This document shows, piece after piece, positions 15,140 to 62,300 of a DNA stretch of 64,000 bases; the stretch's first letter is position 1; the number at the start of each line of letters is the position of its first letter. The DNA is from Eucommia ulmoides. Its lineage: Eukaryota; Streptophyta; Magnoliopsida; Garryales; Eucommiaceae. The stretch covers positions 25,741,077 to 25,805,076 of the forward strand of contig CM028338.1 of NCBI GenBank assembly GCA_016647705.1, given 5' to 3'. The position numbers and the translations under genes were made by a program. Under the pieces are notes generated by a model. That model searched no databases. It saw only the letters and a program-made list of their open reading frames with translations, and was not told the origin of the DNA.

Positions 15140-15145
15140 TTTGTT

Positions 15146-25952: not shown

Positions 25953-28900
25953 GTATGGCTCCTTCGTTCCATTGCTTTCTCTCACCTTACAATTTATAGT
26001 ACTCGTATCCACGCACGAAGAATATTTGCTGCACAAGTGAACAAATTTTTCTTTGGGAAATGTTTCTTTCATTCTATTGTTGTTTTCGTTTTGAAGTGCT
26101 CCGTCTGAATCTTGGGGTACATTCAATTGTTTTCTGTTGGTTCAGTTGGTTCAATTTTGGCAATTATCAGGGTTTCTCGTTATTATTACTTTTTTTTTTT
26201 TCTTTTTTTTCTTTTTAAACTTTGTGCAGTGAATTATGAGCTTTTCTTGGGATATAATCATGTCATCATTTTCTTTTCTCATCCATTTTTTTTTTTTTTT
26301 TCAATTCAATTAGTTTGGTATAAATTTCATATGTTTCAATTTTTTTTGAGGCGTATCAACCGGATATTCTCTGTATTTTGATGAGTTTGTTTATTTGATA
26401 GCTACAACTGGCCTCTATTGATAAGCTCGTGTGAGGGTTTCGCATGAAGCCTACAGTAAGAGTGTTTGCGAGTTCTGTATGTCAAATTATTTAAGACACC
26501 TCTTTTCCGTTTTCTTTTGAGCAGAGTATGGTTGCTGTTTTATGAATTACTACCATTTTCGGCTTATCAGAAAACACTTTAATCATTCGTGTTTCTTGTA
26601 CCTTTTGAGTTTATAGGATGAGAATACGAATTTAAACGAACTGGATACTACTTGTTGGTACAACAACAACAACTAAGTCTTTGTCCCAATTATGTAGGGT
26701 CGGCTACATGAATCCGTTTATGCCATAGTGATTGAGCAAGAGCCATTCCATCAGTCAGGTTTAATGTCACCAAATTAATTCTAATAGTCTTATCCCAAGT
26801 CATCTTAGATCTACCTTTCTCTCTAGTAACTCCTGTACTTGAATTAAATCACATTTTCTCACTGATGTTTCTATGGGGTCTTCTATGTACATGTCGAAAC
26901 CATTATAAACTATTTTCTCTAATCTTCTCACTTGTTGGTAGTTTATGGAATATACAACTGGCAATGTTGTGGACTGTTTGTTCATTTTGTTATGGGAAAT
27001 GAAGTATGTCGACGGTGGCGGTCAGGATGAAATGACTCACAATTCTAGACGATGATTTGTTTTAGTGTGCTCATTGCTTCTAAGTTTGTTTCTTTTTTCA
27101 TTGACGCGCTTTATTGGTAGTTCTTTTATAGTTAAATTTTGAAATCTTAAGATTGGATGAAAAGGAATAGTTTTCTTTGATATGTCCCTTGTGTGTGTCA
27201 AGCATAAGCGGAACTGAAAATGGTTAGGGCAATTGGGAATTGGGACATTTGTTTTGCCAAATGATACAATTCCATTCATGGATTGCTAAATCCGGTGACT
27301 TAAACCCTCTAATTTTTAAAAATTTTATTTGGTAAATGGCGAAATGTCCCCTAATTTAAAAATGCCATATTTATTTTGTTCTTTGGGTACTTTTCTTTTG
27401 TGGTGTTTCTGTTTTGAACATAAATTGCCAAGGATACTACGTTGAATTACTCAAATATTTGTTACTATGTGCTTTTCTTTGTTGCGGGAATGCAGTAAAT
27501 ATGTCGACAGTGGGGATGGACGTGAAATGAGTCTGAAACGACAACGACTGATTGATCAGGGTTCTTCATTTTATGCGACTTCTCAGGGGACGAGTTTAAT
27601 GTACAATCCTCCTCCACCTGCTTACACTTACACTGGTCACCCTCTTGGTTTCCCTGTCGTCCGACTTCGTGGCCTTCCCGTTGATTGTATAGAAGCTGAT
27701 GTCGCCGACTTTTTCAGGGGTCTAGACATTGTTGATATTCTATTTCTTCACAGGGGTGGGAAATTCATGGGAGAAGCTTTCTGTGTTTTGGGGTATCCAC
27801 TTCAAATTGATTTTGCTCTCCAGAAGAATATGCAGAGCATTGGCGGCAGATATGTTGAAGTTTACATGAGCAAGAGACATGATTATTATAAGGCGATAGC
27901 AAGTGAATTTTCAGATGGTAAATCTCTTCAAAGGGCAAAATCATTTGATGAGGGGAAGGACTTGGCAGCGCATACAGGGATTTTGCGTTTGAGAGGATTG
28001 CCATACTCTGCTAACAAGAAAGAAATCCTGGATTTCTTCAAGAAATTTTCGCTTTCAGAAGACTCAATTCACATTACACTTAATTTCGAGGGAAGAGCAA
28101 GTGGGGAAGCGTTTGTGGAGTTTGCAAGTGCAGAAGATTCAAAAGCTGCAATGGAAAAGGACAGGATGAAGCTTAGGAGTCGCTATATAGAATTGTTCCC
28201 TGCATCATGTGAGGATTTGGAAGAAGCAATATCAAGGGGCCAGTGAGTGTTCTTGACTTTCTCCTTTTGCTATTCGGCTTATGATTTTTAATTTCCTTGT
28301 GTTTTAGTGATTTGGCTTGGAACTATGTTGCTGTTATTTTCACGTGAAAATACCCTTTTTCTTTTTGGAAGATACTGCTTCTATGATACTATAAATCTTT
28401 CCAGCTTCAGCATACTTGATTTCATGAGTCAGATCTTATGTCTGGTTGAAAGATCATGAATATGGCTTGGGCTGGCCAATCTAACTCGATTAGTAGACCA
28501 GGTACAGAATCAAAAGTACTCACTAGTGGGCTTGTTGCCTATTAGATTGTGTTTTACTATTAAGGACCTGATATAAATTCAAGTAAAATGATCTGACCCC
28601 AAATGAGACATCTAAACCACAATTTTAGTAAGTGCCACCCATATCCAGCAATTTTTGTAGGATACCACTCCCGCACACGCCTGATTAAACAATTTAAATA
28701 CACATTATGCACCCTCGTGAACTGAAGCTATATATATATATACATGCACACACACACACACACACATATATACTGCTTGCGATTCAATGTGAGTTATTTT
28801 TCTCGCTAGTGCTTTCTCCTTCAGGTGACGTTTGGTAGCACGAACTTCAAGTTTTGGAATTGGAATTGGAATTGGAGATGAACGTATGCAACTTTTTAGA

Positions 28901-31900
28901 TTTTTACATGAATTCATCTATAATTTCATTTCTGAGCCTCCAATTCCATGAAATGAAATACTGTCTCAGAGTAAATTTAATGAGAATGGAATCCTTTTGA
29001 TGAATTCTTGACTTTCTAGAACTTCAAAGGCAAAAAGGTGAGTAATGATGGATGTTTTGATCAAGCCAATTTGCAAAACCAGATTATTTATGCCTTAAGA
29101 TTTAAAATACCACTGAAGTTTACGTTAACCGGTCAAATGGCCATGTAATTCCATAATTTGCTTTTAGTTGTTATGCTTTAAATATAGAAAGGAAGCTTTC
29201 TTTTCTCTCTATTTTCAGGTGTAATGCTTTAGTTTTATTGGCTAGATGTTCGAGGAGAAATGTTTCTCTCTCTCTCTCTCACATACACGCAAAAACACCA
29301 CCTCCTTGAACCATTACACATGGCTTGGAAACCTGAGCTTGATAAGAGTTTGAGTAGTTGAACTGCCTATTGTTACATCATGAAATTGTATATGATTTTG
29401 TTCAAAGACAAACTTAAGACGAGGGGGGGGGGGGTTCCCTAACTTGGTGATGGCTCATGAAAGTAGAAGTACAATGAATAAAACGAGCGAGTTTTAATTT
29501 CTTGTCTTGATATTTCAAATAGGGAGATTTGAGATTTGGGTTATGACTTATGATTAGCTTAAATAAAGATTCATTTGTTTAATTAAAATAATTCGTAATT
29601 ATGATTGCATGTTCTTTTCCATCTAATCTAGAGGTAACTTAAAATGGACAACTAAATATAATAGACCTCGAGGAGAATTGTTCTCTCCATCTCTCTCTCT
29701 CTTCCCCCACACTCAGAGATACCTCTCCTTGAACCATTACACTTGTGGATTGGAAGCCTGAGCCCCATAAGACTTTGAGTGGTTGAACTTCCTATTGTTA
29801 CATCATCAAATTGAAGAAGTCGGATATTGAAATCAGTTGATTTGCTCAACGGAATATTAAAAAATTTAAATCACAATTAACAACATGTTCCTTAAAATTG
29901 GATTCATCCTTATCAACATAAAAAAAAGGGAAAATTTAAATCTTATTTAATCAATATGCCTTTTTCGATACTTCAATCTCAAAGCCGGTAGTTCCTGAGG
30001 CGTGGTTTGAGTAGGCTTTTCCAAGAGCGATTAGATTTGTTCTCGTTCAATTAGTAGAGAAAACGTTCTCCTAGAAGCAACACAAATATCTTGCCTCTAA
30101 CAGTATGCACATGGAAAACTTTGTACGGTAAGATTTCTAAGAATCGAATCCTCATCTCAAGATCATAAGGTAGTTTTGTTCTAATTCTAAGTGGTAGTAA
30201 GAATTAAACCAGTAGTACGAAGAGAGAAAGAAGGAAAATAAGCCCGAGATGGTGATGATGGCCGAAATTTGCATAGGGGCCAACCATGATGACTTTCCCC
30301 TTATACAAGCCTTGTCCAGGCTTCAGAACCCTGGACTTCTTCTTTCCATAATTACACTTTGGCCCCCAACTTCTAAACAGTTCAGTCTTACTACCTATTC
30401 ATTTTTGAAGGACTTTCTCAACTTTTGTTTCCTCTTATGTGTGACCTATTAGGTTCATACTAAAAGCTGGATGGTGGAATTAATTAATTTACTAATTAAA
30501 ATTAAAACAATTCCAATTTTGACCTTCTAAGAGAAACACTTGCCAGAAGGTGTCTCCTCTAACTATGAATCATGTCTACGTATATATCACAACCATGTTC
30601 CGTTGATAGGGTTTCACCAAGAGAACCTCCCCAGTTATGATTTTCGTATTATACAATTTCTATATGTTGTGTCCCCGAAAGACCAATATGGTATGGATAA
30701 AGTAAAAAATCCCTTGTCTAATTATATGTACATTAATTGATAATATAATTTCTTGTAACATCAGTTGGAATCGCATCCCAATCATAATATTGCTCTGGCC
30801 AGAGGTTTGCGTGCTTTACATTAAATTGAATCACACTGGACAGTCTCTCTTTGTTGAGAATGATAAATCCTATCTTGTATACTCGTATATTCACATGTAT
30901 GTGCCACTATACTTAATGAATACCTTTGAAGTTTTGTGGTTAGAATACAACACTTAGTATTATCAAAGTATAACAACTCATGCATGCAATATACAGTACG
31001 TCAAGTCAAAAGATTACAAATACAATCATATCTCAGACATCTTATTTTGACATTAAGCAAAGTTACCATGTAGGATATCAAGGAGGATCATGTTCGACCC
31101 CTTACTACACTAGTAAGTCCCTTAGTGATTATTTCTAGTGTATTATACTAATGGTTTGAGACTCACCATTTTCATAAGAGAAAAAACACCCAAACAAGTT
31201 AGTCTATATCATTGAAGACCAGTTTCAACAATCCAATATCGACTAGGATCAATTTAGAATACATGTTACCAAATGGCTTTAGTCTCTGCCTTTTAATCAT
31301 ATTAATGAACTGAGACATTTCAACTTTATATTCAGGGTTTGCAACAACAATGGTATAATGAAGAATAATATCAAAATACTTTTTATTAATATTGAGATTT
31401 GTAATGTTTTATAGATAAAGCCACTGAATGTATGAACGCAAGATTGAGTATGGGGCTTGCATCCAACAACCTCCCACTAGCATTATAGATAATCGGAACT
31501 GTATCCAATTCCCATCTTTTCAAGATGCTGATCGAACTATTGTAAAATCATTTGCTACTTTATTCACCTTGTCTACTATTTTAATGTCGATATCATTCCT
31601 CTTGATGATTTCGTGAATCAAGTGAAAGCGTTGCTCAATTTGAATTTTTAATGAGATTTGGGTTCCTTTCCTTGAGTTATAGTACCATTGTTGTCGCAAT
31701 ACAAAGGTATCAGTGACCCAAAGGTTGGAACCACTTCATGTGTATTGATGAATTTCTTAATCCATATGCCTTTCTTAGTTGCATTGGAAGCAGCAATGTA
31801 CTCTACGCCAGTAGTAGAATATGCAGTTATAGTTTGCTTACACACCTCCAGTTAACGACCCCACTATTTAGGATATACATATTCCGATGTTGACTTTCGG

Positions 31901-34900
31901 TCATCCACATCAGATTGAAAATTCGAATCAATATAACCGTCAACCTTAGTTCCCCTTCTTCATAGACTAGAAATTTATTCGTAGTCTTTCTCAAGTACTT
32001 GAGGATAAATTTCATAGCTTGCAATGTTCCAAACTTGGATCTGCCTGATAGTTGTTGGTCAATACATCAACATAACTGATATCGGGCCTGGTACATAGAA
32101 TTGCATGCATGAGACTTCTAATTGCCAAACCATATGGAATCTTAGTCATTGCAACCTTCTTTTTAGGAGAATGATGACTCATTTTCCGAGAGAGATGAAT
32201 CCCATGTTGGACTGGTAAAAACCCCTTTCTTGGAATTCACATGTTGAATTGCTCCAATACTTTGTCTACGTTCTCAGATTGGGATAAAAACTAAGCATCC
32301 TTTTAGATTTAACCCTATAGACCTTTATACCCAGTATGTAGGACACATCTCCCAAATCCTTCATGAAGAAAGTTTGAGAAAGTCATACTTTTGTAGTTGA
32401 TAATATCCTTACATTATTTCCAATCAGTAGGATAATATTGACGTACAACACTAGGAAACATATGGCCTTTTATTCTATTTTCTTGTATACACATGGATCA
32501 TCTATATTTTGGAGGTAACCAGACGATTTGACTGTCTTGTCAAAATGGATGTTCCAGCTTCTAGAAGTTTGCTTAAGTTCATCAATGGACTTCTACAATT
32601 TACATACCTTTTAGCTTTCGCCTTCGGCTATGAAGCCCGTTGGTTGACGCATGTAAATCTCTCTCTCTATATTTCCATTGAGGAAAGCCGTCCTTACATT
32701 CATCTGCTAGATTTCATAGTTGTGGTACGCGACGATAGCCAATAAAATTCTGACGGACTTAAACACAATGACCGGCGAAAAAGGTCTTCTCATAGTCAAC
32801 ATCTTGATGTTGATTATATTCTTTCGCCACCATTCTTGCCTTGGACACGTCCACTTTACCATCTAAGTCTAGTTTTCTCTTGAAGATCCATTTGCACCAA
32901 ATGGGACGATTCCCTCAGGTAGATCCACAAGTGTCCAAACTTGATTAGTGTACATGAAGTCCATTTTAGATTTCACTTCTTACTGTTGATGTCCAACGTC
33001 GCCTCTTCGTAGTTAATGAGGTCGTTACCTCCCACAAGCAGTGGTTCCTCTCTATCATTTTGTCCGAGATATCCCAGATATCTATGAGAGGAGCAGAGGT
33101 TATACTTGATTTACGAGGAACATGTGTACTGGATGCATTTACTATTGTCGGCTCCACATTTCTAGTTTGTTCAGCTTGCTCGGTGTCCAACACCTCCACC
33201 AATTCTATCTTTTGCCTAGTTGGATTCTTCGAGAAATACTCTCTAAGAATACGAGAAATTTGGAAACAAACACCTTTTGTTCTTTTGGGAGAGAGAAGTA
33301 GTATCCAACGGTTTTCTTAGGATACCCCACAAACTTGCAAATGTGAATTCTAGATTCTAACTTATCTGCCTCAAGTTTTTTGACATTAGTGCGACAACCC
33401 GGAATCTTAACATACTTAAGACCCTGTTTCTGTCCAGTCCAAATCTCATGTGGAGTAACTGACATGGACTTAGTTGAGACATTGTTTAGTAAATGAGCTG
33501 CAATCATTAAGGCATATCCCCAAAATGAAACGGGTAAATCTGTCCAACTCATCATTGATCTGGCCTATTTAATAGGACTTGATTTCTTCTTTCCGATACA
33601 CCATTTAATTGTGGTATAGCAGGAGGTGTCCACTGGAAGATTATGCTATTAAGCTTGAGATGATCCAGAAACTCTGTGTGTAAGTATTCCCGGCCATGAT
33701 TCGATCGAAGCGCCTTAATACTTTTCCCAATTTGTTTTTCTACTTCATTTCTGAATTCTTTGAACATTTCAAAAGAATCAGACTTGTGTTTCGTAAGATA
33801 CACAAAACCATACCTAGAATGATCGTCGGTAAAGGTAATAAAGTTTGAATATCCACATTGAGCTGTGGAGCTCATGGGTGTACCAGAATGTCTAAGTAGC
33901 CCTTTCCTAATGTCCAACAAAGGGTGACTTGGTCATTTTGCTCATGAGACAATCTTTTCTTTGTTACATTCTCAGTTGCTATATTATTAATTTCACCACA
34001 TGTTTTTAAATAATAAAGATCATCATGACATATGCTCAAGTCAACCAACTTTAAATGGAAATAAATAATAGGGTTAATTACACTTTACCCCTTGTGGTTA
34101 GGCCTAATTACACTTTGCTTCCTGTGTTATTTCTATTAGCACTTTGCCCTCTGTGGTGGTGGACTAAAGTAGAACTATTGACTTTTCCATTAACTTTAAC
34201 GGTCAAAGTGCAAAAGTCAACAAAAATCGGTTAAATAGCATTAAATGACATTTATACCTTTAAATTTTTTTTAATAAGAATTATTTTTATATACTCAAAA
34301 ACTTAAGCGGTTAATGTGTATTTTCTTTAGCTTTAGGGTCAAAATGTTTTTTTTTTTTCCTTTTCAACTCCCCCCCTTTAGCTCCTGCAACGGCGAACCC
34401 CCCCCCCCCCCTTGCTCCAGAATCAATATTGGCACTCTCATGGTGGTCGCCGCTGGCTTTGTTTTTGGGGCTCTGTTTTTGGACCTCAATGGTGAGAACC
34501 CAAATTGGAGGGTGCTCTGTTCGGGGCATAGACCTTGTGCTCTGTTTGGATCAAGGTAAAAATATCGTGTTTTCTGCTTCAATCAAGCAGTCCAAACAGG
34601 GTTTTACTGCTTGTGCTTGGTGCTTACACAATCTAGCCCCATGCTGCTGAGCTCAACATTAGCATTCCCTTTGTCTAATTGTTTCATTTCAAATTGGTGC
34701 CTCCATTGACACAATGCCAAGGTAAATTTCAACTTTAACAGTGGTTTTTTAAACCATAAGGCCCTGTTTGGTTTTGGTTTTCGAAAACAAAATTTCTATT
34801 TTCGAAAATAAAAAAAATTAACTACTACTCTTTTAGCAACGCAGTTACTCAACTACGAAACAATTTTCAGAATATTCAGTCCAAAAACAGAGCACCAAAA

Positions 34901-34987
34901 TCGATATTGATTTTCAACGGACACTCTATATACAGAATGAGGTTTCTTGCAGAAGAGAGAGGAGAGAGTGGAGAAGATATATATATA

Positions 34988-35022
<35 letters not shown>

Positions 35023-38000
35023 TGATTTTTCGTGGTGGCCACACTGTTGGTAGCCGGGCTGCTATTGGTGGTCGCTGGAGTAGTGGCAGGCGAAGAAGGT
35101 GGAGGTTGGCGTGGTGGATGGTGGCCAATGGGAAGAAGGTTCGGAGGAAGAAGATGATGAAAAAATGAAAAAGAAAAACAAAATACACTTTGGCCCCTAA
35201 CTTTTGGTGAAATGAAAAAGAAAAAATACACATTTACCCTTAAAGTTTGGATAACTTTTTGAAGTGACCCATTGAATTGGTTTTAATAAAATGATGAAAT
35301 TACCATTAATTTTGAAGTGAAATGACACAATTACTCTTACTTTTAACAGTTGCACTTTAGTCCACTACCACAGGGAGGGCAAAGTGCTAATCGAAATAAT
35401 ACGAAGGACAAAGCGAAATTAGACCTAACCACAGGGGGGCAAAGTCATAGTTGTCAAAGGCGCGCCCAGGCGCTCGCCTAGGCGCAGCACACGCGCCTCG
35501 CTCAGGTCTAGGCTCTGAACCTACAAGAAGCGAACGCCTTTGACGCATGAGCGAGAGTCGCCTGCGTCGCCGGAGGCGCGCCTGCGGTGGCCAAGGCGAT
35601 TTTTTTCCAGCCTGGCCTTATGGGCTCTCGAATTAGCTAGCCCAAGCCCTAAATATATTCCCAGATCGGCAGATCCCATACCTGAGCTTCCGAAACCCTA
35701 TTGAATCGGCGTGAACAGAATCTCGAACAGAATCGCTTCGCTTTCGGTCGATTTCTCCTTCGATTTCGTTCGATTGCTCCTCGATTTCGTTCGTTTTCTG
35801 CTTCGGTTTCCATTGATTTCGTCGCTCGCTGCTGCTGCTGGTCGATTGCTGCTCCTTCGACTGCTGGTGGTCCGATTTCTGCTCCCTTCGTCGATTTCTC
35901 CTTCGCTGCATGTAGTGTTTGCTCTCCTCCGACTGCTGCTGCTCCGATTGCTGAAAACGAGCCGTTCGATTTCTCCTTCGCTATTTGATTCCTCCTCCGA
36001 CTGCTGCTGCTGCTTCGATCGCCATCGGTTCGCGGTTCGTCGTCCTCCAGCTGCTCAGGTAAGGCTGTAAGGTAATGGTTTATTTATTTTACTTAATTAA
36101 TTATTTATGTTTTATTAATTTTTTTATATAATTACTTAATTAGTTATTTTATTTATGATTTGCCTATTTGTTTCATGATTCATGTGTAAAATGTGTTCTA
36201 ATTTTGTGTAAAATGTGTACTAATTTTTTGTTTCCGTTTCCGTTTCTGATTTTGATGATATTATTTGTTTATGTTCATGTTAAAACTTAATTGTTTAATT
36301 ATTTATTTAGTTTATTTTTGTTATTATTTGTTTGTTTAATTGTTTGTTAGAAGTTAGGACAAATTAAATGGCTAGTGAAGGATCAAGGGACCCCGCGTGG
36401 AGCCATGCGTATTTGGCGAATCCACAAGACAAAAATTCGGTCACATGCAATTTTTGTAAAAAAGTGACGAAATGAGGTATATATCGGGCTAAACAACACA
36501 TTGTTGGCGGATATAGAAATGTCACCGCTTGCAAAAAATGTCCATCTCACGTGAGAGATGAAATCCGAGACTACATGTCCAAGAAGAAGAAGGAAAAAGA
36601 TCAAATTAATTTGCTTCCGAATTTTGATGACTACGAGGCCGGAAGTGAGGATGAGGATGATGTTCGAGATGTGACATTCCTGAAAAGACAAACACCTTCT
36701 TCAGGTAGAAATTCAAGTACATTTGTTCCAAAAAAGGCCAAAGCAAAAAGGACCTTTGGATTTGTATTACACTCCCGATCCAGAAACGGTTGTGAAAAAC
36801 CGAAAGGGGAAAGGGAAACAAACTAAGTTGGATGATAATGATCATGCGAAGAAAGAGTTAAGGTCCAGAGCATGTACACTCATTGCTAGATGGATGTATG
36901 ATGCGGGAATTTCATTTAATGCAGTCAAATATGATAGTTTTCAAGCGATAATTGAGGGTATCGGACAATATGGTCCCGGTATGAAAGCGCCATCATACCA
37001 TGAGGTTAGAGTTCCTCTATTAAAAAAGGAGGTGCAGAAGACAAATGAAATGCTTGAAAAGCACAAGGAGGAACGTGAAACCCATGGATGCTCAATTATG
37101 GCGGATGGTTGGAAAGACAAACGAGAGAGGACTCTCATTAATTTCTTGGTTAATAGTCCTCGAGGAAGTGTTTTTATTGAATCCGTTGATGCTTCCGCTT
37201 ATGCAAAGACTGGAGAGAAGATGTTTGAGCTACTTAGTACTTTTGTGGATAAGATTGGAGAATCTAATGTGGTGCAAGTGGTTACAGATAGTGCCTCTTC
37301 TAATGTCATGGCCGGTAAGTTTAAATATTAATTTCTAATAATTATATTTTAATTAGAATGTACATTTTTCAAATTTATTAGCAATTAAGTATTATTTTTT
37401 ATTCTTCACAGGGAGGTTGTTGGAGGCGAAATACCAACATTTATATTGGACACCATGTGCGGCCCACTGTTTGGATTTGATGTTGGAAGACATCTTTAAG
37501 TTGCCAAACATGAATCGAACCTTTGTGAAAGCGGTATTTCTAAATGGTTACATTTATAACCACCCTGGTGTAGTTAACATGATGAGACGATTCACTCATC
37601 AGAAGGAATTGCTAAGGCCGGCAAAAACCTGATTTGCTACCGCTTTCATCACATTGTGTAGACTTCATCAAGAAAGGAATAACTTGAGGAAGATGTTCAT
37701 TTCGGATGAATGGACCACTAGCAAGTGGGCGAAGGAGCAACAAGGTAAAAGGGCAAAAGACATTGTACTAATGCCGACCTTTTGGCAAAATGTCGTTTTT
37801 GGTCTTAAGGTATCAGGCCCTCTTGTTCGAGTGCTTCGTTTGGTTGATGGGGAGAGAAAACCCGCAATGGGGTATATTTATGAGGCTATGGATAGAGCCA
37901 AAGAAGCCATTGCCAAAGCATTCAAAGAGGACGAGGAGAAGTATAGTGAGATTTTTAAAATTATCGATCGTCGATGGAATATCCAACTTCATCGTCCTTT

Positions 38001-41000: not shown

Positions 41001-44000
41001 TGACTTTTCTCTCTCTCTCTTTCGGCACACATCTCTCTCTCTCTCTTTCGGCACACACAAACATCAAACATGGGCAAACATGAAAAGGGTGGGGCCCCAC
41101 CTACACATCCACACATGATTCTCTCTCACATACTCACATACAAGGTTCTCTCTCTCTCTCCTTCCCCCCCCCCTCTCTCTCTCTCTCTCTCTTTCTCTTA
41201 TTCTCTCTCTTTCTTCCTCTCTTTCCTCTTTCAGTTTGAGTAAAAGGGTGGGCCTACCCTTTTTACTTTTCTTTCTCTTTCTCTCTCTTATTCCCATTTA
41301 ACTCCCCATTTTTCTCCCTCTTCAGTATGGGTGGTGGCAGGGGAGTTGGGCGGTGGGTGGTGGGAGGTGGCGATGGCTGTGTGTGGCGGCGGGAGGTGGT
41401 GTTGGGTGGCAGCAGTGGGAGGTGGGGGAGGGTGGTGGCGGTGGTTGTGGGTGGTGGGAGTTGGGTGGTGGTGAGAGGTAAATATAATTATTTAAAAAGT
41501 TTTAAGGGTAAAAAATATAATTTTAAAAAGATAAGGGTGTTAATGAATTTTTTTTAAAAATAACTTAAGGGCAATTTTGTCAAAAGAAAGGTAAGTGGTG
41601 TTTGAACAAAAAGATAGAGGATGTCTCTGGTATTTGCAAAATGACAAGGTAGGTATTTGATATAGTGCAAAATGACAGAAAAGGTCATTGGCATATACCC
41701 CAAGAACATTTTGCAATGGTTTCGACATAATGATATCTACACAAAAGAAAATAAACTTATAAGTTTAGATAACAATACTCTTGATTTAAGAGTATGCACG
41801 AACAAGTTTCTAGGAGCACCAAACACTTTGCATTCCCTAAGTGGCATTTTGATTGCGTTCATATTGTGCTTAAATTATATGAAACTAGCGTAGAAAAGTT
41901 TTATAAAAATAAGAGGTCAATGTGGTCTAGAATTGAGCTAAGGAAATCAATAAAATACAGAGTTCAGTCGATTGAACCCATGAGTCTTCAGTCGATTGAA
42001 CCCATGAGTCCGGTCAATTGACCTCAATAGGGAGTTGATAATTCAACTCAGCTTAATCCGGTCGACCGATTAGGCAAATCCAGTCAACTGATTAGACCAG
42101 GAGGTTTAGAAAATGTTTTTTTTGGTTGTGTTTGGTCAACCGATTGGACTAGGGACTAAGGTTTCCTTGCTTTGGTCAACCGATTAGATCAGAGGCCAAA
42201 AGGCTTACAAAATTTTGAAGATTGGTCAACTGATCAGCCCGTTCGGTCAACCAATCGGCGCAGAGTTGTAAGCAATATTAATCTTGGATTTCAAAATTGA
42301 ACGAGTTTTCTTAGTCAAATTGTTTCAAACGTGTTCGAATCTCAAATTAGATATTTTATCTTGTGTAAACAAATTTCACGAATTATAAATCAAAATCTAG
42401 GAGTCTATTGTGCAAAACAAACTTCTCATTTTTCAGCCCCCCTTTGATTTGTTCCTTAAACTTAGGATCTCCTACCTGATTTGTGCTTGATTTGGCCCGA
42501 TTTGTGCTTGATTTTAGCGAGGGATTTAAGTCTAATTTATTGTCTATATGGTTCGCATGTCTTGGATTCAACCTAATTCTCTCCAATTAGCCTTGACAAC
42601 TGCAACAATCCATTTTTTCTGTATCTCATATATATCTATTCGTCTTGCATGTTTTTAACTAAGCGAATACATAATAAAATACACAAAAAATACACTGAGA
42701 ACACCTTGTTCTAGAATGAGTGATGGAGGCCAATTGAAAAGAAATAAAATAAAAACTAAAAATAAAAAAGATTCTTGCTCAAATAATTCAATAATCAATT
42801 AATCAAAGATGTCTTTATATTACAATAAAACCTCATTATATAGGCAAATAATAACGGCTATGTTAACGGTTACTTGCCAAAATAAGAATAACGGCTATTT
42901 CATGATTTTATTAGCTATAAATATAATTCACTACTATAGGGAAAAAAAAGACTAATGATTTTTCCGCCTTCATCGTACATAAGTTTGAAGTGGTGGCCGT
43001 AGATCCCCATCAATTCTCCCCGGCTAAAAAGAACTCGCCTTCGGAGAGTTATAAGAATGGTATTGCTCCATGAGGTCAGGTGCAAGTCATCTTAACTCCT
43101 CATCTAAAATCCACGTAGCATTTGAGAGTGGTCGACCCTTCCATTTGATAAGATATCTTTGATATCCACCTTGTGACGAGCCAATGATCTCGTCTTCTAA
43201 CACCTCTTCAATTTGATTATCTCTATATAGTGGCAGATGGTGTAGCTTCGGTGTTGGCGCAGGTGAATTAACATCTTTCCGAGTTAGTCCAAGGACAAAG
43301 TCCATGCTTAAATCCTTCCGTGGCATGTGAGGAATAGACAAAGGGGTGTACATGCCTATGTTATTTTTCCTAGCCTTAGTGTTAGCTCCTAACAATGTTG
43401 GAGGGCCAAACAACACCGGCTTGGTGTACTTTGCTACCGGACATGGTGCATGCGGCACGGATGGGGTCGTTTGCAAGGAAGGCACCAACTTGATGCACGT
43501 CGTTGGGCGAGGCATTGTGGCCCAACACCAGTGGGTGTTGGGCAGTGAGAAAGACCTTGGTGCGGTACCGATGCAAGGTGGCATAACGTAGGCGCAATGC
43601 TACGTTGTAGACAGTGTCATGTACGCGGCATGACAAATTGTTGGGAATGGCGGTGCATTTTGGTGCAGAAGATGCATACGGCGTTGGGAAGTCGTTGGGC
43701 GCAACAACGCAACGAGACAGAACGTGGGCGCAACGACGTGTTTTGGCCATGCAGGCGGCGTGGCAAAACGTTAGCGAACATCGGCATGACTATGGGACGA
43801 GATGGTAACGAGACAGGCTGTTGAAACGGTGCAAAAATGTTGGAATGAAGCTGAGCTCGTGGAGAGCTGATAGACTGGTAGTTACCAGACATGTGCAAGA
43901 CATGTGGGTGCTGTCTGGACAGTTGCTGTGGCGGTTTTGGTTAGTTTTCAGACAGAAAAACTAACTTCTATGGGTTGGACACGTGTTGGGACAGGTGTCG

Positions 44001-47000
44001 GTTATTTGCCTAGGCAGTTGGGGCTGTCAATTGCTGATTTCTCCTATAAATAGTCATGTTTTGGGTTTGTTTTTGGTTAGTAAATGTAGACTTGCGGAAA
44101 TCAGACTATTGTTGTAATTGGTTCCTTGTAACCTGAGTTATATAATACAAGGTTGGGTTTTCCTGTAAATGTTACTATGCCTTTGCGTGGGTGCATTTTT
44201 GGTACTGTGTTTCGGTGTATTCTCGGTTGTATTATGTTGCAGGAACGTGTGTGTTTTACATACGGTTGGTGCATTTCCGTTGCGTGGTAGGACATTAACG
44301 GGGCTGCTAGTTGTCGGTGCAACTAGGTCATTACACGGTTATAATTTTTGCGGTAAAAATTTGACCATGTGACACTTAGCTAGTTGGCAAGTTCGACATT
44401 GTGACACAATTTTGGAGACATCTTTCTTCCAGCTAGGCCAATAAAATCTATCCTCCACCAAAGCAATAGCTTTGTCACGACCAAAGTGTCGCGTGAGCCC
44501 CCGTGTAATTCCCATAATAAAATGCTTGATGGTCTGAATATAAAATAAACTCTTGGGATAGTAGATAGTAGCTCCAGTGTCGTAGAGCTTGTACAACAGC
44601 GTAAAACTCTTTATCATAAGTAGAGTATTTTTGTTTGGCGTCATTAAGTTTTTCGCTGAAATAAGCTATCGGGTGGCCTTCCTGACTCAACATGCCCCCG
44701 CTTCCAATGCCAGACTCATCACAAGCAACCTTATAGACTTTAGAAAGGTCGGGGTGTCTTAAGACGGGTGTCTTAGTTATCTTGTCTTTAATGACATGAA
44801 AGGCTCTTAAATTCTCCCTTTTTTATACAATCCGTCATTGGGGCCATGATAGTGCTAAAGGCTTTAATAAAGCGTCGATAGAAAGTGGCTAGTCCATGGA
44901 AACTACGGACATCGGTAATAGATTTTGGTTCTGACCATTCCCTAATAGCTTTGACCTTTTTAGGGTCAACAACAATACTATGAGCAGACACGATGAATCT
45001 TAAGAAAAGTACTTGAGGTTGCATAAAAGAACATTTTTTGAGATTGACGTGCAATTTGGTAGTCCTGAGGGTCTCAAGAATTAAGTGGATATGGCTTAGG
45101 TGCTCATTCCTAGATGTACTGTAAATTAGGATGTCATCAAAGTATACCACAAGAAATTTCCCAATGAAAGGTCGTAAAATCATAGTCATAACTCTCATGA
45201 AGGTACTAGGCGCATTGGAGAGTCCAAATGACATAACTAACCATTTATACAAGCCATCTTGTGTCTTAAAGGCAGTGTTCCATTCGTCCCAGGTTGGATA
45301 CGTATTTGATGGTATCCACTATGCAAGTCGATTTTTGTTTACCATTTGGACCTTGCTATTTGGTCTAGTAAGTCATCAAGTCTAGGAATAGTAAATCGGT
45401 ACTTAATCTTGATCCTATTAATGGATCGACTATCCACACACATTCTCCAAGAGCCATCCTTTTTGGGAATCAACAAACCAGGAACTGCACAAGGGTTAAG
45501 GCTAGGTTGAATTCGACCTTTTGTGAGAAGTGCGTCTACTTGCCTATTCATTTCTGCCCGTTCTTTGGGATTCAAGCTATAATGCGGGAGATTAGGCAAT
45601 TAAGATCCTAGTACTAGGTCGATGGCATGTTGAATGTCCCTCATAGGTAGTAATTCTTCAGGCAGTTCTTTGAGTGTCACGTTGCTGAACTCCCCCAACA
45701 AGGTGGTGATCTCTTCTGGGAGATCAACACTTGTTTCAGTAGGAAAGCGAATTTCTCCTTTTCCTACTAATGCCAATAGGACGCCCGAGTTCTTACTCTC
45801 ATTCTCAAACTTTTGACGGGATAAGATTTGCAATTCATTCTTATAGTTTTTTTTTGAGAAGAAAACTCATTCTTTGTTTGACTCTTTTTTGGGTCGGGTT
45901 TGGTTGGTTTTAAGATTATGTTTTTGCCAGCATGTTGAAAAACATAAGTATTGTCCTTACCAAATTTTTTCACGTCCACGTCATAGAGCCATGGACGACC
46001 TAAGAGAACATGAGTAACATCCATGGGTAAAACATCACATAATATTTGTGTGGAGTAGTCACCCATCTTGATTGGTATTAAACAAGTCTCAGAAACAGGT
46101 AAGGAGGTCTTATCTACCCAGGCAACCCTATAAGGGTGAGGATGTGGGTTAATTTTGAGCTTTAACCTAGTAACAACAGACTTGGATACGACATTCATTG
46201 AGCTTCCTCCATCGATAACCAACTTACAAATTCTATCCCCCCACACTTGACCTAAGTGTGGAAGATTCTGGTACGTTTCCAGGAGTCAGAATCTAGATAC
46301 ACCTCATAACATTAAGATAAACATTCCTAGCTTCATCCCCTAGTTCTTTTCCCTCTTCCGATGGTTCTAAAGGTTCCACTACTTGGTTATTTTCTTCCTC
46401 ATCTAGGGGTTCTACCTCTTCAACACCTATTGCTAGGGCTCGATGTGGGCAACGTGATGCAAAGTGACCTACACCATGATAATTGTGACATTCATTGGAG
46501 GAGAAATCTCTAGTCTTAGTCATACTAGGTCTCTGGTAGATACTCTAACTAGGATTAGAGCTTGTCTTGGAGGCCCCTGGTTGTACGTGACTGGGGTTGT
46601 AACTACTCTTAAGTGCTACGGAGACAGGTTGTGATTGATTGGTCCAATGTGATTTCTCAAAAAGTGCAGATCTAGACGGATTTAATCCTCCTATTTGAGA
46701 AGTTACTCTTCTCTGATCGAGAAACCTAGAGAACCTCTCTATTTCTAGAGCCTTATGATATACCTCTTCTAGTGATTCTGGTGAATGGAGAGAGAATTCT
46801 CTTTGAATATCAAGCCTTAACCCATTAATGAATTTGGTGATACGAACCCATGATGCCTCATCAATATCACACCTCAACATTAATTCCTCAAATTGGGCTA
46901 CATAATCAGATACCCTAGAGGACAACTGCTTAAGGTTGAGCCATTGGTTCATTAGTTGTTGCATATAACATGTCGGGAGATAGTTCTCTTTTAGCCGTTT

Positions 47001-47982
47001 CATGTCCTCGCAACGGGTGATAGGTGTCTCTCCTATTCGTTCTATGTTTCTTTGGACACCTTGCCAATACCTCTTAGCAAACCCTATAAGTGTCATTTTG
47101 ACAAATTTTACCCTATGGTTATCTAACATCTCATACCATTCAAAATAATCATCCAAATCATTTAGCCCATCTAAGAAAGTGTTAGGGTTTAGAGTGCCAT
47201 CATAACAAGAAACATCAACCTTGACCTTTCTAATAATATCATCATGGTCAAAGCGAGGTTGATGGGGTCTACCCTAAGCTCTTATTGGTCTAGGATAGCT
47301 AAAGGTGTCCCCTTCATTGGGGTATACTTCATCTAAAAATTCTGGAGCCTCATCAAATGGATACTTAGGGGTTATGGGCTGATGACTCTCTAGGGGACTA
47401 TGAGAAGGAGCTAGGGTAGGCGAATAACTTGAATTTAGAACTTTCGGAGCGGTCGGCAGTCAGTTGGGGGCTGGTAAATTTTCATTATGATGAGAAAAAT
47501 TAGACTCCACTCTACATTCCCGTACTGGTTGTTTTTCCATGTGTCTAGTAGCCCTATGGTTTATGTGTTAGTCAACTAGTTGAGTGATTAGGCAACCTAA
47601 CTCAATGCGGATCTCCTTATGGAATTCAATTTGTTGCTTATGGAGGTCGATATATAAATTATCTCGATTTTGGTTCACTTTCTCTTGAAGGTGGTTTATA
47701 GAATTTTGAAGTTGGTTTATGGAATTTTGAAAGTTATCCACAGTCTCTTGTATGGTTTGGAATTCTTGTTGAATAGAATTTTGGGAAGTTTTATAGGTTT
47801 CGAATAGTCATGGAGTGGATTATAAATTGATGATATTAATGCCCCAAATATTCGATGGAAGTACTATAATGTTATATCTGTCACAAAAGAAAATAATGCA
47901 ATAGGGTACTAATGTAACTAGAATATAGAAATAATGTGTTGCCTTTTTTTTTTTCTATTTTTTTTTTTTAAATTGATGTCTG

Positions 47983-48016
<34 letters not shown>

Positions 48017-51000
48017 TAAATAGAAAAACTAGGAATAAAACAATAGTGTGTGTATATATATATATAAGTAGGACTTACAAACCGTGCCTAGGGCACAAAG
48101 CAATCGGCAACCACTACGGATGGGATCTGGAGTAGACTTCAGGTGCCGCGAAGCTCCGGTGAGGGCCCGAAGGGCTGGAACAGGCCTGTCGAGGTTCGGT
48201 GAAGGCTAGCCAGCAAGGGCTCGTAAAGGTCCGATGAGCTTAGATCCGGAGCAGTGGCTGATGGATCTGGATCGTTGGGCTGTTGTAGCAGAACGTGGCT
48301 GGCCTAATTGATGGTGGCTAGAGTTTTCTGTTCTGTGGTGGCTAGGGTTTTGGTTTTGCACGCGAAGCGTGAAGGATCAAAGTGAGCTTTGAATACCAAA
48401 TTGACGAAAGCGGTCAATTGAAAAGAAATAAAATAAAAGCTAATAATTAAAAAAAATTCTTGCTCAAATAATTCAATAATTAATTAATTAAAATAAAGCC
48501 TCATTATATAGACAAATAATAACGGTTACTTGCCAAAATAGAATAACGGCTACTTACCAAAATAAGAATAACGGCTATTTGACATAATAAGGATAATGGA
48601 TACTTAACGGCTTTATTAGCTATAAATATAATTCACTACTATAGGGAAAAAAAAAAGACATGATTTTTCCGCCTTCGTTGTACATAAGTTCGAAGTGGTG
48701 GCCGTACATCCCCATCAACGAGTGATATAGTGTTTCAATAAACACTACAAATCCAACATTGTTTGCATTCGATTGTGAAAAACTGAGAGCTTGTTCTTGA
48801 AAGCCTAGGTCTACATTCTCTCTGGTCTTTACACAACTTTAAATCTGTGATTTACTAATTTCGCTTATCTTAAACGAGTTCATATCTATAAATCTGGTGA
48901 GTTCGTTCCAACTTTAATAGTCTTATGATTGCTTATTCTTTTCTGGGAATTGGAACGTGTTTATATGTGCTATATTGCTAATATCTATCTATCTATCTAT
49001 ATATATTATACATCTTGATCGTCTAGATTTTGTTGAATCACATATTTGTGTATTTGCTTACCTTAATCTTTGAAAAACACTGGTTAGATTTCATGTATGC
49101 TAAAACGAGTCTGAATTATCTTATTGTGTAAAATCTATTGATTTGGAAAACTTGATTATCACTAAAATGTTAAAACGTTTTCCTAAATGTAAAGATTACT
49201 TTAATTTGTTAATTTTGGTATATTGGAAAAGGGAAAAACTTGTACCGCTGGCGTGATTTAGTTCTCTACGAGGTCTTAAATCTTCCCTTACCGATCTTAA
49301 TAAGAAGCAAGCTAATCGAGTTGTTTTTCATTGAACATTATTGAGACAACTTTGTGAAATTGTAACAAATTGATTTTGAGAAACTAAGAATCGACTATTC
49401 TAAAAAGTTGTTCTTACTTGGATACCTTATTGCATTTTCAGATTAATTATGAATTTGTCTATTCCTCCTATTTCTCTTGTTCTTTATTGAGATCATCATT
49501 CTGATACATATGTTTAAGGAATTGAAGAACCCTAAATTGAGCTAAATATTGAAAATCATTAGATCTAGATATTTGACGTAAACCGTGTATATCTTAACCT
49601 GTATTTCCAAATTTTTGAGTATTTGTGTGGTCTTCTTAATAATGATCCTTGTTATAATTGCTGAATTATCTTTAAGCGTGATTGATTATAAGTGTGCTTA
49701 CTTGATTCATCCTTGTTAACTATAAATTGTCTCATTAACTATAAATTGATCATCAAGTCTAGCTTAATTCTCATAAATCATATTGGATATCTTAAACGAA
49801 AAATCCTTGCATGGATATCTTAGAAGCTCCGTCGTGTTTGTGGTTTAGATTGTAAAGCCTTTAGTTGAGTCTATTGGTTTACTCATCTAAGCATATTAAG
49901 AGTTGTATTCGTCCTTGACCATATTCTGTTAGATGTATTCATCCTCGATCATATTCTGTTAGAAAATACTATAACGTATAACAGGAAAACTGAAATATTC
50001 CAAAGTGTGAAGAAGAACAAGGGAGGTGCCTTTGGTGTAGTATCGGCTCGATCTCGCCCGTGAAGAGATTAGTGTGAAGAAAACCAAGAGAGTGAATCTA
50101 GATTTGTGATAGTATTTTTTTTTTGAGTGTAATATTTGTTTGTGGTTGGTTGTCTCTTTTGTGAATTGTATGGTTGAGTTGTAATAATGAGTAAGACATA
50201 ACCTCAAAGGGGGTTTGAAATCCAACAGAGTGTACCTTGGTAGTGAAGACTTAATCTTTGCCTGTGAAAGGAGGTTAGAAATCCAAGGGAGTGAACCTTG
50301 GTAGTAGGGGCTCAATCTCTGCATGGGAAAAGGGATATGAAAATCCAAGAGCAGCACTCTTCGTAAGTGTAAAGGTTTGATATTCACCTATGAAGAGGAT
50401 CAAAGATTTAGTGGATTATAATTCTCCGCAGGATTTTGGAGTAGATGTAGGCAAATTGATATTTGCCAAACTACTATAAATTCTTGGTGTCGTGTGTTTG
50501 CTTGATTGACTCTGTCCCTATCTTATCCTTGTGGTTGTGCGACAGTGATTATTGTGATTACTTAATTGATTCACCGCTGCTAATATATATATATATATCA
50601 TTTCTAAGTAAATCACATCCATCTCAATTGATTGAGTAATTTGCAAAGTAGACTCTTTGTTTCACATCATTACTGTTGTCTACTAAAAAGATTGGTGAAG
50701 ACTGAATAGTTTTGTATTAACAAATTTAAAGAAAAGCAGAAAAATTTCAAGACCCAATTCTCCCCCTCTTGAGTCACATCTAGGCCAACAAAATATATTG
50801 CATAATAACACAATATTCTCTTCCTCTCCAAAATCCTTTTCATTCAATGTGAATAAGAAAGAAAAACCAATTACTTGATACGGATCTCCACGTTGTGTCA
50901 AAAGTAACATGGTTCAACCAGAATCATCTGAGCTCCAATTTATTTGTAGGAGAAAGTTATAGTTACTTTTGGTTATTTGACTTACAAGCACCAAGGCTTG

Positions 51001-51676
51001 CTTGAGTTTTGACATATCAATGTGTTACAGCCCTGTTCCACTTTGAACCTCAAATCTAAATGCAAACCTTCTGAGAATTTGTTAAATTTCAGATGCCAAT
51101 ATATATGATTTTTCAGTTTTACTTTTTTTCTTTACTAATTTTGTGTGTATCCAAGATAGCAGGGAAAATAAACTTAACTGTGATCGAGAAATTTAAAATT
51201 TACTTTTCATTGTGTTGGTAGATTTATCGAATGCAACTTTGTTACAATCGTGATCTAGAATGTTCACCACTTATTAATGCGTACTTTATTTATTTTTTTG
51301 TTTTTCTGGTGTTCTGTATTCAAAACTTTATGCTTGATGAGAATGTAATCGCAAGCTGTTTTTGAGCAGATATTCACCAAAACCTCCAGAATCAACAGAA
51401 ATGACGTCAGTATTGCGAATGAGGGGATTGCCTTATTCATCTGGCAAGGATGATATCATTGAGTTCTTCAAAGAATTTACTTTGTCAGAAGACTCGATTC
51501 ATATAATGAATAATTGGGAGGGAAGGCCGACTGGAGAAGCATTCGTGGAGTTTGGGAGTTCAGAGGATGCGAAAAGGGGCCTGGCCAAGGACAGGATGAC
51601 CCTCGGGAGTCGTTACATTGAGCTCTTTCCTTCATCTCTCGAGGACTTGAATCAAACAATTTCTAGGCAGCATTAG
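25939..51676 (+). CDS. hnRNP F/H-type RNA-binding protein with three quasi-RRMs (exons 25939-25952, 27496-28242, 51370-51676)
   Basis: Three coding exons join in frame to give 355 residues. The protein starts [20 protein letters not shown], an N-terminus typical of this plant family. Quasi-RRM 1 spans about residues 59-129 ([16 protein letters not shown]), qRRM 2 about 166-240 ([16 protein letters not shown]) and qRRM 3 about 266-342 ([16 protein letters not shown]). qRRM 2 and 3 share about 57 of 89 residues. Proteins of this family (animal hnRNP F/H, GRSF1, ESRP relatives) bind G-rich RNA and affect splicing and RNA processing in the nucleus; the plant role is inferred. Intron 2 is 23,127 bp. 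Many plant members I know of have two RRMs and about 250 residues, so the third could be lineage-variable or an exon duplication. I am sure of the family and fairly sure of the exon joins, without transcript evidence. Confidence 0.85.
26661..26929 (-). mobile_element. 5'-truncated RTE-type LINE in intron 1
   Basis: On - the 3' end reads AATTGGGACAAAGACTTAGT and then (TTG)n, the usual tail of plant RTE LINEs, and the translated part includes [18 protein letters not shown], the C-terminal end of the RTE ORF (compare 63365-63930: LIEAPVKKCNLIQVQ). The insertion is flanked by an exact 11-bp target duplication, ACTTGTTGGTA, at 26650-26660 and 26930-26940. It is about 270 bp long and cannot be active. 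Confidence 0.85.
26985..27050 (+). repeat. Degraded second copy of the start of exon 2, in intron 1
   Basis: TTTGTTATGGGAAATGAAG then TATGTCGACGGTGG...GATGAAATGA (26989-27036) aligns with TTTGTTGCGGGAATGCAG then TAAATATGTCGACAGTGG...CGTGAAATGA at exon 2 (27478-27531), including the end of the intron. Translated it reads [18 protein letters not shown] and then stops, against [17 protein letters not shown] in exon 2. The copies lie 495 bp apart. Confidence 0.65.
27496..28242 (+). CDS. hnRNP F/H-type gene, coding exon 2 (qRRM 1 and 2)
   Basis: Acceptor GGGAATGCAG|T at 27495/27496; donor CCA|GTGAGT at 28242/28243. It carries the N-terminal tail, qRRM 1 and qRRM 2, with a linker rich in charged residues ([19 protein letters not shown]). 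The exon has no in-frame stop. The codon after GGC reads CAG and the next is TGA (28244-28246), so an unspliced message stops right after the donor site and encodes 254 residues. Coding pattern and conservation of the RRM signatures make this the best-supported exon in the window. Confidence 0.9.
28728..28772. repeat. (TA)n(CA)n microsatellite
   Basis: TATATATATATATACATG is followed by a CACACA run to 28766 and TATATA. Confidence 0.9.
29250..29396 (+). repeat. Direct repeat with 29666-29815
   Basis: Both blocks run CGAGGAGAA, then a CTCTCT tract, CTCCTTGAACCATTACAC, GGA(A)ACCTGAGC, TTTGAGT(A/G)GTTGAACT, CCTATTGTTACATCAT. They lie about 415 bp apart in the same orientation. No coding content. 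Confidence 0.75.
29666..29815 (+). repeat. Second copy of the 29250 direct repeat
   Basis: See 29250-29396; the copies differ by several small indels and substitutions. I see nothing else in 28780-30100 apart from a G11 run near 29424. Confidence 0.75.
30200..31468 (-). repeat. Copia-C 3' LTR (left end uncertain)
   Basis: On - it begins TGTTGGATGCAAGCCCC after the purine tract GCTAGTGGGAGGT (31469-31482), the usual copia arrangement. Later it holds AAGATAGGATTTATCATTCTC, a typical transcript-start-side region of copia LTRs. The outer end is somewhere near 30.0-30.5 kb. Confidence 0.5.
31648..32030 (-). pseudogene. Copia-C RNase H
   Basis: 31845-31648 reads [20 protein letters not shown], then [18 protein letters not shown], the RNase H motifs of copia polyproteins. 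32024-31827 reads [20 protein letters not shown], the region just before it. A frameshift separates the two. Confidence 0.75.
32100..33202 (-). pseudogene. Copia-C reverse transcriptase, degraded
   Basis: On - 33100-32100 holds scattered RT segments, including [19 protein letters not shown] linker residues near 33030 and [13 protein letters not shown] near 32440, where the family has YVDDILLIG. Both catalytic aspartates are replaced. Many stops. Confidence 0.6.
33205..33930 (-). pseudogene. Copia-C integrase
   Basis: 33920-33552 gives the core: [38 protein letters not shown] (second Asp replaced by Asn) and [11 protein letters not shown] (catalytic Glu). 33555-33205 continues with [38 protein letters not shown] and [19 protein letters not shown], the C-terminal part. 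Frames change between the two. Confidence 0.8.
35690..36070 (+). other. hAT 5' region with CTG/TTC-rich sequence
   Basis: Between the subterminal repeats and the transposase ATG lies GC-rich sequence with TCGATTTC and CTGCTGCTGCT runs. Open frames here are Ser/Leu/Phe-rich and overlap in several phases, so I do not call a gene. A GTAAGG donor-like site at 36060 suggests that part is a 5' UTR exon. Confidence 0.4.
36368..38993 (+). pseudogene. hAT transposase (BED zinc finger, DUF659, hAT dimerisation), inactivated
   Basis: Four inferred exons: 36368-37314, 37412-38221, 38298-38416 and 38520-38993, all with GT...AG borders and consistent phases. Exon 1 begins [16 protein letters not shown] and carries a BED-type finger (CNFCKK...H...C). 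Exons 1-2 hold the DUF659/RNase-H-fold transposase region ([45 protein letters not shown]). Exons 3-4 hold the C-terminal hAT dimerisation motif ([27 protein letters not shown]) and an acidic tail. Breaks are a TGA at 36473-36475 in the BED finger, a frameshift in the A6 run near 36730 and a TGA at 37630-37632 (after RPAKT). The rest reads smoothly, so inactivation is recent. It belongs to the plant hAT family with BED-DUF659-dimer architecture. Confidence 0.9.
39321..40338 (-). pseudogene. Copia-C gag, main part
   Basis: On - 40338-39880 contains IVLYRNRIL-type leader residues and then [20 protein letters not shown], a classic UBN2 gag segment, followed by [17 protein letters not shown] near 39890-39840. 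Basic and Ser-rich residues and a degraded zinc-knuckle area follow at 39750-39640. It runs to the MULE target duplication at 39312-39320. Frameshifts and stops occur every 50-150 bases. Confidence 0.6.
40349..41700. mobile_element. 1,352-bp near-palindromic element with a 10-bp TSD
   Basis: The left arm (40349-41003) and right arm (41064-41700) are inverted copies over about 640 bp each: GGGTATATGCCAATGAC at the left end, its complement at the right; CTCACCACCACCCAACTCCC (40565) against GGGAGTTGGGTGGTGGTGAG (41456); CATGTTTGCCCATGTTTGA against its complement at 41064. The 60-bp centre has two copies of CTCTCTCTCTTTCGGCACACA. The flanks are an exact 10-bp duplication, CAAGAACATT (40339-40348, 41701-41710). 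It is a foldback or MULE-like element; it encodes nothing convincing, and the Gly/Trp-rich and Ser/Leu-rich frames come from GGTGG and AGAG tracts. It sits inside the first codons of copia-C gag. Confidence 0.9.
41711..41728 (-). pseudogene. Copia-C gag start codon region
   Basis: ATG at 41728 (minus strand) reads MSKPLQNVL. It is cut by the palindromic element and the frame goes on past it at 40338. This ties the palindrome to copia-C. Confidence 0.5.
42721..43012 (-). repeat. Gypsy 3' LTR
   Basis: 292 bp; partner of 48402-48717. On - it begins TGATGGGGATC just after the purine-rich AGCCGGGGAGAAT. TATA-like CTATAAATATAATTC is present at 42914. Confidence 0.8.
43087..43379 (-). pseudogene. 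Gypsy integrase remnant and chromodomain
   Basis: On - the frame reads [20 protein letters not shown] (start of the integrase core; only the first catalytic Asp is left) and then jumps to [20 protein letters not shown] and [20 protein letters not shown], a chromodomain. The family normally has about 200 more integrase residues between these parts, so the core is deleted. Chromodomains target integration to certain chromatin marks; that is family knowledge. Confidence 0.75.
43380..44374 (+). mobile_element. Solo LTR (995 bp) inside the gypsy integrase
   Basis: Begins TGTTAGCTCCTAACAATG and ends TTGACCATGTGACA, with TG...CA termini and an exact 5-bp duplication CTTAG (43375-43379 and 44375-44379). 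The gypsy integrase frame is interrupted at a point that fits (zinc-finger side at 44380, core side at 43375). A TATA box CCTATAAATAG lies at 44043-44053 on +, so the LTR probably points in the sense direction of the surrounding gene. It contains no coding domain; open frames in it overlap on both strands. Confidence 0.85.
44045..44052 (+). promoter_or_regulatory. TATA box of the solo LTR
   Basis: TATAAATA, about 330 bp before the LTR end. In this position it would start transcription in the sense direction of the hnRNP F/H-type gene. Confidence 0.5.
44380..44693 (-). pseudogene. Gypsy RNase H fragment and integrase zinc finger
   Basis: 44693-44540 gives [20 protein letters not shown] and [20 protein letters not shown] (RNase H), then a deletion and frame change. 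44590-44380 gives [20 protein letters not shown] and [11 protein letters not shown], the HHCC finger of integrase. The solo LTR begins right after CQLAK. Confidence 0.8.
44788..45833 (-). pseudogene. Gypsy reverse transcriptase
   Basis: 45833-45600 is the protease-RT linker, ending in a stop. 45599-45339 begins [38 protein letters not shown] frameshift lies near 45300. 45252-44788 continues: [16 protein letters not shown] and [11 protein letters not shown], with the catalytic YFDD intact (45133-45144), then [16 protein letters not shown]. The connection to RNase H is truncated. Confidence 0.85.
45767..46246 (-). pseudogene. Gypsy aspartic protease region
   Basis: Reads [20 protein letters not shown] (the D-x-G-S active-site region; here DGGSS) and [20 protein letters not shown], typical of gypsy proteases. 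It overlaps the start of the next segment and lies downstream of the gag zinc knuckle. Confidence 0.75.
46293..47290 (-). pseudogene. Gypsy gag and zinc knuckle
   Basis: 47260-46545 gives the gag domain: [81 protein letters not shown] stop follows at 46545. 46523-46293 has the knuckle [16 protein letters not shown], in which the second Cys of CCHC is Tyr, so zinc binding would fail. Stops upstream of 47270 remove the N-terminus. Confidence 0.8.
47291..48401 (-). other. Gypsy 5' leader and gag N-terminus, degraded
   Basis: Between gag and the 5' LTR. It holds T-rich runs (47947-48012), a (TA)n at 48054-48064, and at 48386-48400 on - TTTGGTATTCAAAGC, a decayed primer-binding site just after the LTR. 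47500-47830 on - has several TTCAAAATTCCATAAACCAA-like repeats. No usable open frame. Confidence 0.5.
48402..48717 (-). repeat. Gypsy 5' LTR
   Basis: 316 bp; see 42721-43012. It has an extra AACGGCTACTT-type block compared with the other copy. Confidence 0.8.
50209..50398 (+). repeat. Three tandem units of about 61 bp in the copia-D LTR
   Basis: Units begin near 50209, 50270 and 50331. Each has (A/G)GGG(T)T(T)(T/A)GAAATCCAA, GAGTG(T/A)ACCTTGGTAGT and a CTGTGAA/CTATGAA-like end. A weaker related segment precedes them (50010-50090). Confidence 0.65.
50791..51369 (+). other. Last part of intron 2 before exon 3
   Basis: AT-rich, no element or gene recognised. It ends in a T-rich tract (51285-51310) and TTTTTGAGCAG, a suitable acceptor. 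Confidence 0.5.
51370..51676 (+). CDS. hnRNP F/H-type gene, terminal coding exon 3 (qRRM 3)
   Basis: Begins with the A that completes the split Gln codon, then [20 protein letters not shown] and the whole of qRRM 3 ([30 protein letters not shown]), ending ISRQH and TAG at 51674-51676. The domain has no frameshift or internal stop across 101 codons although 23 kb of element insertions lie upstream. That argues that splicing still works and the exon is under selection. Confidence 0.9.
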
Positions 51677-62196: not shown

Positions 62197-62300
62197 ACTT
62201 AATAGTTATGCTTTCTCATTGTTTTCGTATTCATTTCTCTCTTTAACACTTAGGTTCAATGATTCAAGACAATAGCGAAATTGAAGAGGACATTTGATAA

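Follow-up and report, generated by a model that had tools for sequence, protein, structure and literature searches.

The window, a 64,000-nucleotide stretch of Eucommia ulmoides DNA (G000:C14:25741077-25805076), lies inside contig C14, which is 61.16 Mb long and belongs to an assembly of 391 contigs totalling 946.67 Mb. On its forward strand is a gene predicted to have three coding exons and to encode a protein with three quasi-RNA-recognition motifs (qRRMs). Coding exon 1 (25939-25952), the only candidate accepted by the exon-search script within 25700-26700, encodes MFHRG and ends at the donor AGG/GTATGG. Intron 1 (25953-27495; 1,543 bp, phase 2) is followed by exon 2 (27496-28242), which carries qRRM1 and qRRM2, and by intron 2 (28243-51369), which spans 23,127 bp and is again in phase 2. 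Exon 3 (51370-51676) carries qRRM3 and the stop codon TAG (51674-51676). All three exons are open and, when joined, form one frame of 355 amino acids; counted from the ATG at 27527, the product of exons 2 and 3 has 340 amino acids. A sequence-only reading of the window had proposed that a 23-kb intron splits an intact RNA-binding-protein gene, and this part of the proposal holds; coding exon 1 is added by comparison with a paralogue. The intron does not separate single RNA-binding domains as had been stated, since qRRM1 and qRRM2 both precede it and only qRRM3 follows it. A second copy of the start of exon 2 (27497-27533) lies in intron 1, some 490 bp upstream (27002-27038), with 30 identities, 5 mismatches and 4 gaps; its score is 31, whereas 500 shuffles gave no more than 24.

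In a search of the PDB, exon 2 matched a solved hnRNP H structure with an E value of 7.9e-31, and exon 3 matched hnRNP H with an E value of 5.3e-35. Together with a Pfam RRM_1 score of 33.8 bits for exon 3 (cut-off, 20.7), this bears out the earlier view that exon 3 retains a full open qRRM, and 20 of its 22 conserved positions are kept. The protein contains tandem qRRMs resembling those of hnRNP H/F, with a match to 6dhs over two stretches (E value, 1.3e-33). Pfam RRM_1 was detected in qRRM2 and qRRM3 and missed qRRM1. Judged from these matches, the gene is a predicted plant hnRNP F/H-like RNA-binding protein gene with three coding exons and three qRRMs. A structure model of exon 2 made without an alignment had a mean pLDDT of 41.3 and was set aside. 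No Rfam family matched anywhere in the window at gathering thresholds, and single pattern-based scans returned no close relatives of exon 3 among viral contigs and none of exons 2 and 3 among genome contigs.

The boundaries of intron 2 are as first read: the donor CCA/GTGAGT at 28243 and the acceptor GAGCAG/ATATTC at 51369 join in phase 2 and leave the frame open to the stop codon. Within the intron, 55 of 1,324 other GT dinucleotides match the donor consensus at least as well, and 110 of the remaining 178 CAG trinucleotides have a pyrimidine tract that is as rich or richer. The splice signals by themselves would not single out this donor and this acceptor.

Most of intron 2 is transposon sequence. 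The nest spans 31400-48717, or 75% of the intron, of which about 2 kb (39312-40338 and 41711-42720) is assigned by position only, and the intronic parts outside the named elements sum to a few kb. Of the minimum of seven elements originally proposed, six are supported, namely a copia, a MULE-like element, a hAT, a foldback, a gypsy and a solo LTR. The outermost layer on the left consists of Ty1/copia remains on the minus strand (31400-42720, outer ends approximate), interrupted at 34071-39311 and 40349-41700. In their left flank, SH3_retrovirus scored above the cut-off, and rve (24.7 versus 32.6) and RVT_2 (28.8 versus 31.6) scored below. No LTR pair was found for this element, called copia-C in the earlier reading. 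Because three pieces tested within 39312-40338 and 41711-42720 contained no retroelement domain, the attribution of these two segments to copia rests on their position.

The MULE-like element (34071-39311) has terminal inverted repeats of about 100 bp (82%) and is bordered by an exact 9-bp target-site duplication (TSD), TAAATAATA, at 34062-34070 and 39312-39320. Its right terminal repeat is split by a hAT element on the plus strand (35446-39292), which is in sense orientation relative to the gene, has exact 15-bp termini and is bordered by the exact 8-bp TSD GGCAAAGT at 35438-35445 and 39293-39300. Two hAT domains scored above the cut-off, DUF659 with 127.4 bits and Dimer_Tnp_hAT with 30.8 bits. 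Target-site duplications and domain matches thus back the proposed layering of hAT within MULE-like element within copia. The foldback (40349-41700), MULE-like by the length of its repeats, has arms of about 650 bp that differ by a K2P distance of 0.113 over 618 aligned sites, and is bordered by the exact 10-bp direct repeat CAAGAACATT at 40339-40348 and 41701-41710. Folded as RNA, it reaches -1021.4 kcal/mol, compared with -338.9 to -372.9 kcal/mol for five mononucleotide shuffles.

On the right side of the nest lies a Ty3/gypsy element on the minus strand (42721-48717) with LTRs at 42721-43012 and 48402-48717 and flanks, ATGAG and ACGAG, that agree at four of five bases. Its gag, reverse transcriptase, RNase H and integrase zinc-finger domains scored above the cut-off, and Chromo scored below (23.3 versus 25.1). 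The two LTRs differ by a K2P distance of 0.115, with 29 differences over 275 aligned sites and five gap openings, one of them at the alignment edge. A solo LTR of 995 bp with TG..CA ends (43380-44374), the sole candidate from a search of such ends, sits inside the gypsy element between exact 5-bp copies of CTTAG. The second proposed series, a solo LTR in a gypsy element in a copia-D LTR, is therefore retained for its two inner layers; the plus-strand stretch that had been called the copia-D LTR (48718-50790) was not confirmed as an element, as no relative of it was found within the parts of the window compared.

Further repeats lie outside the nest. An intergenic copia-like element (9947-19026) has LTR-like repeats of about 2.1 kb that are 82% identical, with integrase and gag_pre-integrs matches between them. 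Inverted repeat copies at 26659-26929, in intron 1, and at 63645-63920 are 79% alike and resemble the tRNA-derived Au SINE. A tandem duplication of about 510 bp with 89% identity occupies 62300-63318.

With the exon 3 protein as query, the whole genome yielded nine matches at E <= 0.001 (all 19 candidates scored): its own exon 3 (one), its own exon 2 (two), and contigs C5 (three), C15 (two) and C9 (one). The C5 matches belong to a paralogue on the minus strand, with exons 2 and 3 at 62065779-62068283, that has the same three exons in the same phases as the C14 gene, with both introns in phase 2 at homologous codons. Its exon 1, one of three candidates there, encodes MYYRG (versus MFHRG in C14) and ends at the donor AGG/GTAAGA. 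Intron 1 is 1,556 bp in C5 versus 1,543 bp in C14, and intron 2 is 1,427 bp in C5 versus 23,127 bp in C14, interrupting the homologous codon as AA/G and CA/A, respectively. Since a homologous in-phase intron of 1,427 bp is present in C5, intron 2 already occupied this position before the two copies diverged. The C14 intron is 16 times as long as its counterpart, a ratio that holds relative to this paralogue only; the paralogy is old (dS about 1), so that the C5 intron is a poor guide to how long the C14 intron was when the insertions began.

In the C15 relative, a single open frame of 267 amino acids encodes two qRRMs, and the protein probably resembles Arabidopsis At5g66010. The C9 match (L041, G000:C9:32515781-32515966) resembles the end of the C5 qRRM2 and the donor region, and is probably a duplicated pseudogene piece. 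A tree of ten qRRMs gave no clear order for qRRM2 and qRRM3. Between qRRM2 and qRRM3, dS was 1.63 and 1.97 in two comparisons, values near saturation, and was not computable in two more; for corresponding domains in the C14 and C5 copies it was 0.93 and 1.03. The age of the qRRM2/qRRM3 duplication rests on a dS that is itself near saturation.

Taken together, the locus is very probably a three-exon hnRNP F/H-like gene in which an old intron 2 was enlarged to 23.1 kb by nested transposon insertions. Given that this intron measures about 1.4 kb in the C5 copy, the long C14 intron looks like an ordinary intron inflated by transposons, and the sharing of its position and phase with a paralogue at a synonymous divergence of about 1 shows that it is old. 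The pre-mRNA would be transcribed through the nest and the spliceosome would remove the whole 23 kb, joining 28242 to 51370. Assemblies are in general prone to fail at long nested repeats, so a chance joining of unrelated pieces might produce such a structure. Against this, the window contains no N and lies within a contig of 61 Mb, which agrees with the proposed contiguity of the two halves as far as the assembly record shows; the two halves lie on the same strand and match in phase, the structure of the C5 paralogue agrees, and the target-site duplications make the nesting steps consistent. The genome-wide matches, confined to the gene's own exons, C5, C15 and C9, also provide no other qRRM partner near exon 3. 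An assembly artefact is accordingly extremely unlikely.

Comparison of the C14 copy with the C5 copy reveals purifying selection on both halves of the gene. Exon 2 shows 66.9% amino acid identity over 248 codons (dS 1.14, dN 0.205, dN/dS 0.18) and exon 3 shows 69.6% over 102 codons (dS 1.03, dN 0.211, dN/dS 0.20), with dN/dS values of 0.20 for qRRM2 and 0.14 for qRRM3 (79 codons each). The similar ratios, which are averages over a long time, indicate that exon 3 has been conserved to much the same degree as exon 2. The period since the gypsy insertion was addressed by a neutral simulation clocked by the gypsy LTRs (20,000 runs), in which 80% of indels were assumed to be frameshifts. Exon 3 stayed open in 5.7% of runs with indels and in 55% when stops only were considered; under this model, continued selection on exon 3 since the gypsy insertion is weakly supported.

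Faster change in the C14 copy is confined to one domain, qRRM1. The branch of this domain is 0.33 in C14 versus 0.077 in C5, and the C14 copy has GLPV where C5 and C15 have GLPF, a motif whose aromatic residue may take part in G-tract binding. This long branch and the substitution would fit a C14 copy that is decaying as a whole towards a pseudogene, with the swollen intron as a symptom. The remainder of the gene speaks against such decay, which we regard as improbable: all three exons are open, dN/dS between the copies is 0.18-0.20, and the branches of the other two domains are alike in C14 and C5 (0.14 and 0.15 for qRRM2, 0.20 and 0.13 for qRRM3).

The donor of intron 2 contains an in-frame TGA (28244-28246), and the donor of the C5 paralogue likewise holds an in-frame stop, TAA. 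As a phase-2 donor of the form GTRAGT always reads as a stop, the donor stop is no special device. If splicing failed or an intronic poly(A) site were used, translation would stop at this TGA and yield a protein that has qRRM1 and qRRM2 but lacks qRRM3. The nest might even have uncoupled the gene, the functional transcript ending in the intron and encoding a two-qRRM protein, with exon 3 left as a relic or transcribed separately. Besides the donor stop, such uncoupling would be in keeping with the 24 AATAAA motifs on the sense strand of intron 2, with the in-frame ATG of exon 3 at 51401 and with the C15 relative, which is a two-qRRM protein. Yet exon 3 is open and constrained about like exon 2 (0.20 versus 0.18), tests that a recent uncoupling would escape, and, with 12 ATG in the 579 bases preceding exon 3, a short separate transcript would serve poorly as a message. 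Uncoupling is therefore considered quite improbable, and transposon enlargement of an intron that is still spliced remains the preferred explanation.

A switch between a two- and a three-domain protein may operate at the C14 gene. The nest could act as this switch if the silencing state of the intron decided between a two-qRRM product, ending at the stop in the donor, and the three-qRRM protein; the silencing might perhaps be fed by small RNAs that arise from the 1.35-kb foldback hairpin when it is transcribed along with the gene. We consider this version unlikely; if true, it would mean that a splicing-type regulator is tuned by transposon silencing. As a sequence proxy for methylation only, the observed/expected CpG ratio was 0.67 over the nest versus 0.61 in the intergenic copia; it reached 1.03 in the hAT and was 0.28 in the foldback, which is of low complexity. 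C-to-T changes, likewise a proxy, were 5/32 at CG versus 14/111 at CHH in the gypsy LTRs, 4/28 versus 35/478 in the foldback arms and 37/129 versus 142/945 in the intergenic copia. By these proxies, neither CpG and CHG depletion nor the C-to-T contexts of the intronic elements differed clearly from the intergenic copia. The C14 and C5 copies form a natural pair in one genome, paralogues of a splicing-type regulator with a 1.4-kb intron and a 23-kb nest at the same place, so that RNA and methylation data could directly test the cost of a transposon-filled intron and the two-domain isoform.

Among known relatives, the Arabidopsis hnRNP F/H-like genes At5g66010 and At3g20890 belong to the same named family as the C14 gene, and a table in PMC545797 lists two RRMs for each, in contrast to the three qRRMs found here. 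As Pfam misses qRRM1 in the C14 gene, domain counts of this sort can be one too low. No paper on a three-qRRM plant hnRNP F/H gene was found among the matches listed from the open-licence literature, a weak negative.

With regard to the intron, intronic heterochromatin and IBM2 are reported to be able to prevent early 3' ends in Arabidopsis and rice (PMC4417168, PMC7145194), and IBM1-type genes with intronic heterochromatin are described as controlled by IBM2/ASI1/SG1 and EDM2 (PMC4417168, PMC7145194, PMC11265718); RPP7 is named in a cited title within PMC7145194 and PMC11265718. The C14 gene is like these genes in having a transposon- or repeat-bearing intron where early polyadenylation would drop the downstream part of the gene. 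A need for chromatin marks to stop early polyadenylation, which the sequence-only reading named as frequent for such introns, may apply to the C14 gene as well. The gene differs in that the reports on IBM1-type genes include chromatin marks, short isoforms and a genetic dependence, whereas the C14 locus is known from its sequence. In grapevine, LTR elements, together with other transposons, are reported to drive intron size, with a bin of introns >20 kb shown (PMC3058033), and transposon-driven intron size is described for MSH1 genes of green plants, with one intron reaching 101,025 bp (PMC10487979). The C14 intron is of the same kind, and adds, for one gene, a nesting order resolved by target-site duplications and a short-intron paralogue in the same genome. 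The expansion of this intron by transposons is well supported, and gives a new instance of a kind that is ordinary for repeat-rich plants.
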